Origin: Bacillota bacterium
GTDB taxonomy: Bacteria; Bacillota_I; Bacilli_A; RF39; UBA660
Reading direction: 5' to 3'
Assembly: GCA_015059495.1 (NCBI GenBank)
Contig: SVAI01000001.1
Coordinates: 671,811 to 735,810 of the forward strand
DNA: 64,000 nucleotides
Of the stretch, positions 4,365 to 4,610 are shown piece by piece. Made by a program: the position numbers and the translations under genes. Positions within the stretch are counted from its first letter, which is position 1, and each line of letters begins with the position of its first letter. The notes under the pieces are model-generated. The model was not told the origin of the DNA. It saw only the letters and a list, made by a program, of their open reading frames with translations, and ran no database searches.

Positions 4365-4610
4365 TTACACTAATAATGGATTAAAGAAAAGTAAGAAGAA
4401 TATAAATAGGAATAAAAATAAGAAGAATACCATAGTAATAATTAAAATGGTCATAATTGAATGAATTACTTCATTTTTAGTCTCAGGATTTCTTCCAATA
4501 GCTTCAGCTACCTTAGAAGATAATATTCCTATTCCTATTCCTAACCCTAAAAAAGCTAAACCAAGCATAATACCAATTGCAGTGATTGTAGCAGCAGATA
4601 TACTTTCCAT
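4365..4610 (-). CDS. ATP synthase c-like (proteolipid) subunit lacking the conserved carboxylate
   Basis: [31 protein letters not shown] matches c-subunit helix 1 and RNPE loop; helix 2 [23 protein letters not shown] has no Asp/Glu. Confidence 0.88.

Follow-up and report, generated by a model that had tools for sequence, protein, structure and literature searches.

A conserved F1-like ATPase operon of gut bacteria with surface-protein genes and a c-like proteolipid that lacks the helix-2 carboxylate

The known ion-translocation chemistry of Fo needs an acidic residue on subunit c together with subunit a. This acid in helix 2 of subunit c has been called universally conserved (PMC6063947), and F1-like ATPases that lack Fo were considered specific to mycoplasmas, without an equivalent elsewhere among bacteria (PMC3369863). 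The mycoplasma enzymes were tied to work at the cell surface, namely gliding (PMC11864180) and antibody cleavage (PMC12994834). The Type 2 enzyme, the G1-ATPase of the M. mobile gliding motor, is derived from F1 and is the proposed mover of giant surface proteins (PMC11864180); its beta subunit carries an N-terminal extension of ~30 kDa, the motor is dimeric and includes PGK, and no c homologue has been described for it. An origin of GliD by fusion of b and delta was suggested earlier (PMC11864180). In the Type 3 F1-like X0 ATPase of Mycoplasma (MMCAP2_0575-0581, with MIB-MIP as partner) the genes for alpha, beta, gamma and epsilon are clustered and linked to surface proteins, and subunit a is missing. 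Its membrane part consists of a 12-TM and a 2-TM protein without a c homologue and without recognised b or delta (PMC3369863, PMC12994834).

Here we compare these systems with an operon from a Bacillota bacterium, found in a stretch of 64,000 nucleotides (the window). At the level of sequence, F1 parts, the loss of the c carboxylate, the lack of subunit a, a b-delta stalk and a conserved operon are established for it. Our literature search found neither a c-ring without carboxylate nor F1-like ATPases outside mycoplasmas, which is weak evidence as it covered open-access papers only.

Gene content of the operon

The operon comprises 11 genes. Besides c they encode the F1 subunits alpha, gamma and beta, a short epsilon and a fusion of b with delta, and further two N-terminally anchored surface proteins, a small anchored ectodomain, a giant surface protein of 3000-3750 aa and a multi-helix membrane protein. 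On the minus strand of the window, to which all coordinates of the operon genes below refer, they are arranged as top240 - S3042 - S1694 - S499 - c - b/delta - alpha - gamma - beta, followed by epsilon and the multi-helix gene outside the window. Intergenic gaps in the window are mostly 1-15 nt, with ~96 nt between S3042 and S1694 and an overlap of alpha and gamma. The surface genes abut c and b-delta, and the stop of S499 lies 11 nt from the start of c.

The F1 part is represented by a beta-like protein (456 aa, 1..1333, its last codons beyond the window), a gamma-like protein (267 aa, 1345..2148; PF00231 with E 1e-19, hhalign to ordinary gamma 97.9%) and an alpha-like protein (503 aa, 2126..3637). 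Beta has kept Walker A, Walker B, the catalytic Glu in GVGER (GxGER) and the DELSEED-like loop as DELSKED, and alpha has kept the P-loop GSKKTGKT and the Arg finger SVSRLGG. The first-pass annotation, made from the sequence alone, had described the c-like gene as kept intact beside catalytic F1 genes. Indeed, the catalytic motifs of the adjoining alpha and beta are intact, and the same holds for the F1 catalytic motifs and the Arg finger in 32-33 homologues. An epsilon-like protein of 80 aa follows downstream of beta outside the window (L004:16529-16771) and aligns weakly but collinearly with the N-terminal domain of epsilon in hhalign, the C-terminal helices being missing.

Structure prediction and profile comparison identify b and delta of the peripheral stalk as one fused protein (240 aa, 3641..4363). 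Its AF2 model (pLDDT 85.6) shows a TM segment with a 69-residue helix, a helical bundle and a small sheet, with a delta/OSCP-like C-terminal domain. The top 23 Foldseek matches in the PDB were without exception structures of ATP synthases, for the most part delta/OSCP chains judging by length and name, at E-values of 0.008-0.6, so that the weight lies in the consistency of the list. In hhalign, the C-terminus matched ordinary delta with E 4e-4 and collinear C-termini.

Four surface proteins belong to the operon. S499 (499 aa, 4622..6121) has an N-terminal TM and an ectodomain with an fn3-like region; its paralogue S1694 (1694 aa, 6124..11208; hhalign 98.9%) has a long ectodomain, and top240 (20449..21171), which is related to both, a small one. 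These three carry a single N-terminal TM each, and the giant S3042 (11305..20433) has one at each end. Ectodomain regions, partly fn3-like, are shared among all four (hhalign 55-99%). Complete homologues of S3042 comprise 3170-3753 aa, and a GLUG motif was found in homologues; a Pfam search of the giant proteins returned little besides weak fn3 and GLUG.

The order c, b/delta, alpha, gamma, beta, epsilon is the same as in bacterial F1Fo, and c, gamma and delta are homologous. Unlike F1Fo, the operon lacks subunit a and the c carboxylate, its b and delta are fused, its epsilon is reduced to the N-terminal domain, and surface proteins are included.

Three other regions of the window were noted. 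A small Cys-rich repeat protein with repeated PTACGATDGEETKKEEA units (62558-62860, minus strand) adjoins a radical-SAM/SPASM-like protein (61448-62494, minus strand), and the pair looks like a multi-repeat RiPP precursor and its maturase. At 37212-41333 (plus strand) a serine recombinase and a Mob/Pre-like relaxase lie beside a tRNA-Cys (37039), with the GC skew reversed at 38-42 kb; this is a probable integrated mobilisable element. A putative conjugation- or secretion-type gene set lies at 26107-32252 (minus strand), with a VirB4-like ATPase that is divided between two ORFs and a TrbL/VirB6-like protein with several TMs.

The c-like proteolipid and the loss of its carboxylate

The c-like proteolipid (81 aa, 4365..4610) was proposed at first sight to be a subunit c, and profile searches confirm this assignment. 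PF00137 (ATP-synt_C) matches residues 11-72 with E 3.1e-8 and 34.2 bits, above the cut-off of 24 bits, and the profile of the family matches solved c-subunits end to end, the best being c1/c2 of Acetobacterium woodii. The protein forms the two-helix hairpin with GxGxGxG in helix 1 and the RxPE loop. The hallmark of subunit c, the carboxylate at the 17th residue after RxPE in helix 2, is absent, and the whole helix contains no D or E. The first-pass annotation had placed a Thr at this site, counting 16 residues after RxPE, which is one residue off. In the ordinary c of a relative (G069), which reads RQPE-ASGKIQAILLLGAALAE, the conserved acid is the 17th residue, and the residue aligned with it in the window protein is Met60, not Thr59.

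The claimed loss of the carboxylate itself holds well beyond the window. A profile search of public genomes and an order-level scan yielded 61 c-like genes, and helix 2 was acid-less in all of them (52 distinct proteins). The carboxylate site is occupied by A in 25 of the 52, by S in 13, T in 11, M in 2 and V in 1. The absence of the acid is therefore the conserved trait, and the Thr or Met itself varies. A carboxylate in a shifted position was found within helix 2 of none of the 52; past the start of this helix only two proteins have any acid, in both cases as the C-terminal residue. As for the Phe-rich helix pointed out at first, its phenylalanines F62/F67/F69/F71 are invariant in the first 11 homologues, as are, among others, the TM1 glycines, the GRNPE loop, L73-L74 and N77-P78. 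The proposed dN/dS comparison gave a median of 0.18 over 521 non-independent pairs of c-like genes. The acid-less proteins are under purifying selection and not in decay.

In the A. woodii c1/c2 rotor, whose subunits are the closest solved relatives by sequence, one hairpin lacks an ion site and the ring as a whole still binds Na+. This is a precedent for a mixed ring in which a second c paralogue would supply the acid. Unlike in A. woodii, however, the only c gene of the window genome lacks the acid. This genome is a single contig of 1.26 Mb (92% complete) with one PF00137 gene and two PF00006 genes, the latter being alpha and beta of the operon. A second c gene with the acid was found nowhere in it, and ten other family members with a c-like gene also have no second PF00137 gene. 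A mixed ring is refuted for the window genome, barring a copy in the missing ~8%, and we regard it as highly improbable overall.

Subunit a (PF00119) was likewise not found in the window genome at 92% completeness. We observed no ordinary rotary ATPase in this genome, as there is no other PF00006 or PF00137 gene and no PF00119. The operon does encode a multi-helix membrane protein of 175 aa downstream of beta (L004:15998-16525, outside the window), which could be a diverged subunit a in a scenario of residual or unconventional ion coupling, with the site built from polar residues of helix 2 or by a partner subunit. Its AF2 model is confident (pLDDT 88.7), and its highest TM-scores in the PDB, 0.46-0.50, were obtained for chains of 9jc2, an entry that contains the PS3 subunit a. 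However, these Foldseek matches have E about 4.5 and are not significant, the predicted fifth helix contains no basic residue conserved among homologues, and the acid-less c site varies between A, S, T, M and V. We rejected the assignment as subunit a, given that hhalign also gave no profile match, and consider such residual coupling very unlikely. The known Fo chemistry is excluded on present evidence because there is neither an acid on c nor a subunit a. The initial statement that such a ring cannot translocate H+ or Na+ is strongly supported by the acid-less c, by the lack of subunit a in the genome and by the same picture in 52 homologues, and the loss of ion coupling is nearly certain.

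Distribution and phylogeny

Among 147 genomes of the same family a c homologue is present in 12 and subunit a in one, G069, whose F1Fo operon is of the classical kind and whose c has the Glu; the remaining 11 c-carrying genomes have the acid-less c. The system is an accessory trait, as it is missing from two other genomes of the genus. A profile built from the 11 family sequences retrieved 34 strong loci in public genomes. Their hosts are uncultured Bacilli, Clostridia, Clostridiales Family XIII, Lachnospiraceae, Coriobacteriales, a Peptococcaceae MAG and the isolate Bifidobacterium colobi LC6. Across phyla the 11-gene set recurs in gene order, in the relatives as S1694 - S499 - c - b/delta - alpha - gamma - beta - epsilon - multi-helix - top240 - S3042, and in one subgroup of Bacilli gamma is placed after the multi-helix gene.

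A separate ordinary subunit a is encoded in 11 of 26 host genomes, and in these hosts the acid-less machine is thus additional to the ATP synthase and not the synthase itself. All eleven genomes have at least 1.8 Mb, a size at which only the host of L063 (1.9 Mb) lacks an ordinary subunit a. These data bear on the idea of an ATP synthase operon decaying in a reduced genome, with which the small window genome without ordinary F1Fo would agree. It is refuted by the conservation of the gene set across phyla, the dN/dS of about 0.18, the intact catalytic motifs and the coexistence with ordinary F1Fo in genomes of larger size, one of them from an isolate, and is the least credible of the readings considered here.

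B. colobi, which also has an ordinary subunit a, is the only one of 112 Bifidobacterium genomes with the system; 80 were matched in our scan, and all matches but that of B. colobi were weak (E 1e-7 or worse) and were read as ordinary c. The B. colobi beta nests with a Lachnospiraceae copy (100/99), which indicates that the operon has spread by horizontal transfer. A viral origin was rejected, the viral contigs having no related locus. Some loci showed peculiarities of their own. Long low-complexity C-terminal tails of up to ~970 aa were seen on alpha at L017:4888-9138 (G007), L018:2-1945 (G060) and L038:11011-13500. In the MAG loci L043, L047 and L057 the alpha or beta frame is in two parts, owing to sequencing error or to real breaks. 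The host of L053 (G434) carries the L053 operon, an ordinary beta and one more beta of the window type (G434:C134:104-1438), which suggests that this genome or bin contains the system twice.

In the beta tree (96/96) and the alpha tree (96/99) the family lies on one branch with the mycoplasma Type 2 and Type 3 F1-like ATPases, apart from the ordinary F1Fo enzymes of these hosts and of mycoplasmas, a split that is a clade only with the root among ordinary F1Fo. Type 3 groups with the clade of the window at 99/96 in the beta tree. Dropping either mycoplasma type keeps the join (92 and 98), which may be partly attraction as the stems are long. In contrast to Type 3, the operon has a c homologue and b-delta, and in contrast to Type 2 its beta has no N-terminal extension. 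The seven-gene cluster of Types 2 and 3 with the 12-TM protein 1, protein 2 and the 2-TM protein 5 does not occur, the gene content being different, and the operons of the acid-less family showed no MIB or MIP. When single mycoplasma sequences of X0 proteins 1, 2 and 5 or MIB were compared with the c-like, b-delta, multi-helix and top240 proteins, hhalign gave no match. Since the mycoplasma membrane proteins are unmatched by parts of the operon, the latter is not a member of Type 2 or 3; its mode of work would resemble that of an F1-like X0 ATPase, to which it is probably related.

A candidate motor for the cell surface

Taken together, we think it probable, though by no means settled, that the operon specifies an F1-type rotary motor driven by ATP hydrolysis, in which torque reaches surface proteins through an ion-blind c-ring. 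Alpha3-beta3 would hydrolyse ATP and turn gamma-epsilon, which in turn would rotate a ring of the c-like proteolipid. With the glycine packing helix and the polar RNPE loop kept and the ion-binding acid gone, this ring may serve as a purely mechanical rotor. The head would be held still by the b-delta fusion, perhaps with the multi-helix protein replacing subunit a. Torque or cyclic strain could then cross the membrane to the four related anchored surface proteins and move the giant one, and the output might be surface motility, adhesion or the handling of extracellular substrates. Ring formation, rotation, mechanical coupling to the surface and the biological role are steps that we infer. Rotation with a mechanical output is argued from the retention of motor, coupling loop, rotor hairpin and stator, an output at the cell surface from the gene linkage with anchored surface proteins and the mycoplasma precedents. 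Gene linkage likewise suggests a contact between rotor and surface proteins and a motor driving a surface machine.

The first-pass annotation had proposed a rotor plate, a membrane anchor or a seal, which were reasonable ideas, and the rotor version is favoured, since conservation extends to the F1 motor, the b-delta stalk and the gamma/epsilon coupling parts. The c-like protein might instead be a static membrane anchor or plug, with the F1 parts using ATP as a clamp or assembly factor to export or position surface proteins, and nothing rotating continuously through the membrane. An acid-less c could not rotate against subunit a, the surface proteins are obvious clients, and F1 relatives in type III secretion are export ATPases. 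However, gamma, the DELSEED-like loop, the b-delta stator and the polar loop of c are kept and would be needless for a plain anchor, and we judge this explanation rather unlikely.

For the rotary motor in its specific form, in which the c-ring is a mechanical transmission that converts ATP into torque and movement of giant surface proteins in gut bacteria outside mycoplasmas, we see about an even chance. The conserved acid-less family itself, which occurs in Bacillota and Actinomycetota of the gut, among them a cultured Bifidobacterium, breaks the statements of a universal acid and of a restriction to mycoplasmas. The operon could plausibly stand midway between ATP synthase and the mycoplasma motors for gliding and antibody cleavage, and it opens a long-standing question to tests, namely how F1-type rotation can cross the membrane without ion flow. 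If true, it would represent one more class of F1-derived motors, which has spread horizontally and still possesses the rotor proteolipid and the stalk, both apparently lost in the mycoplasma motors.
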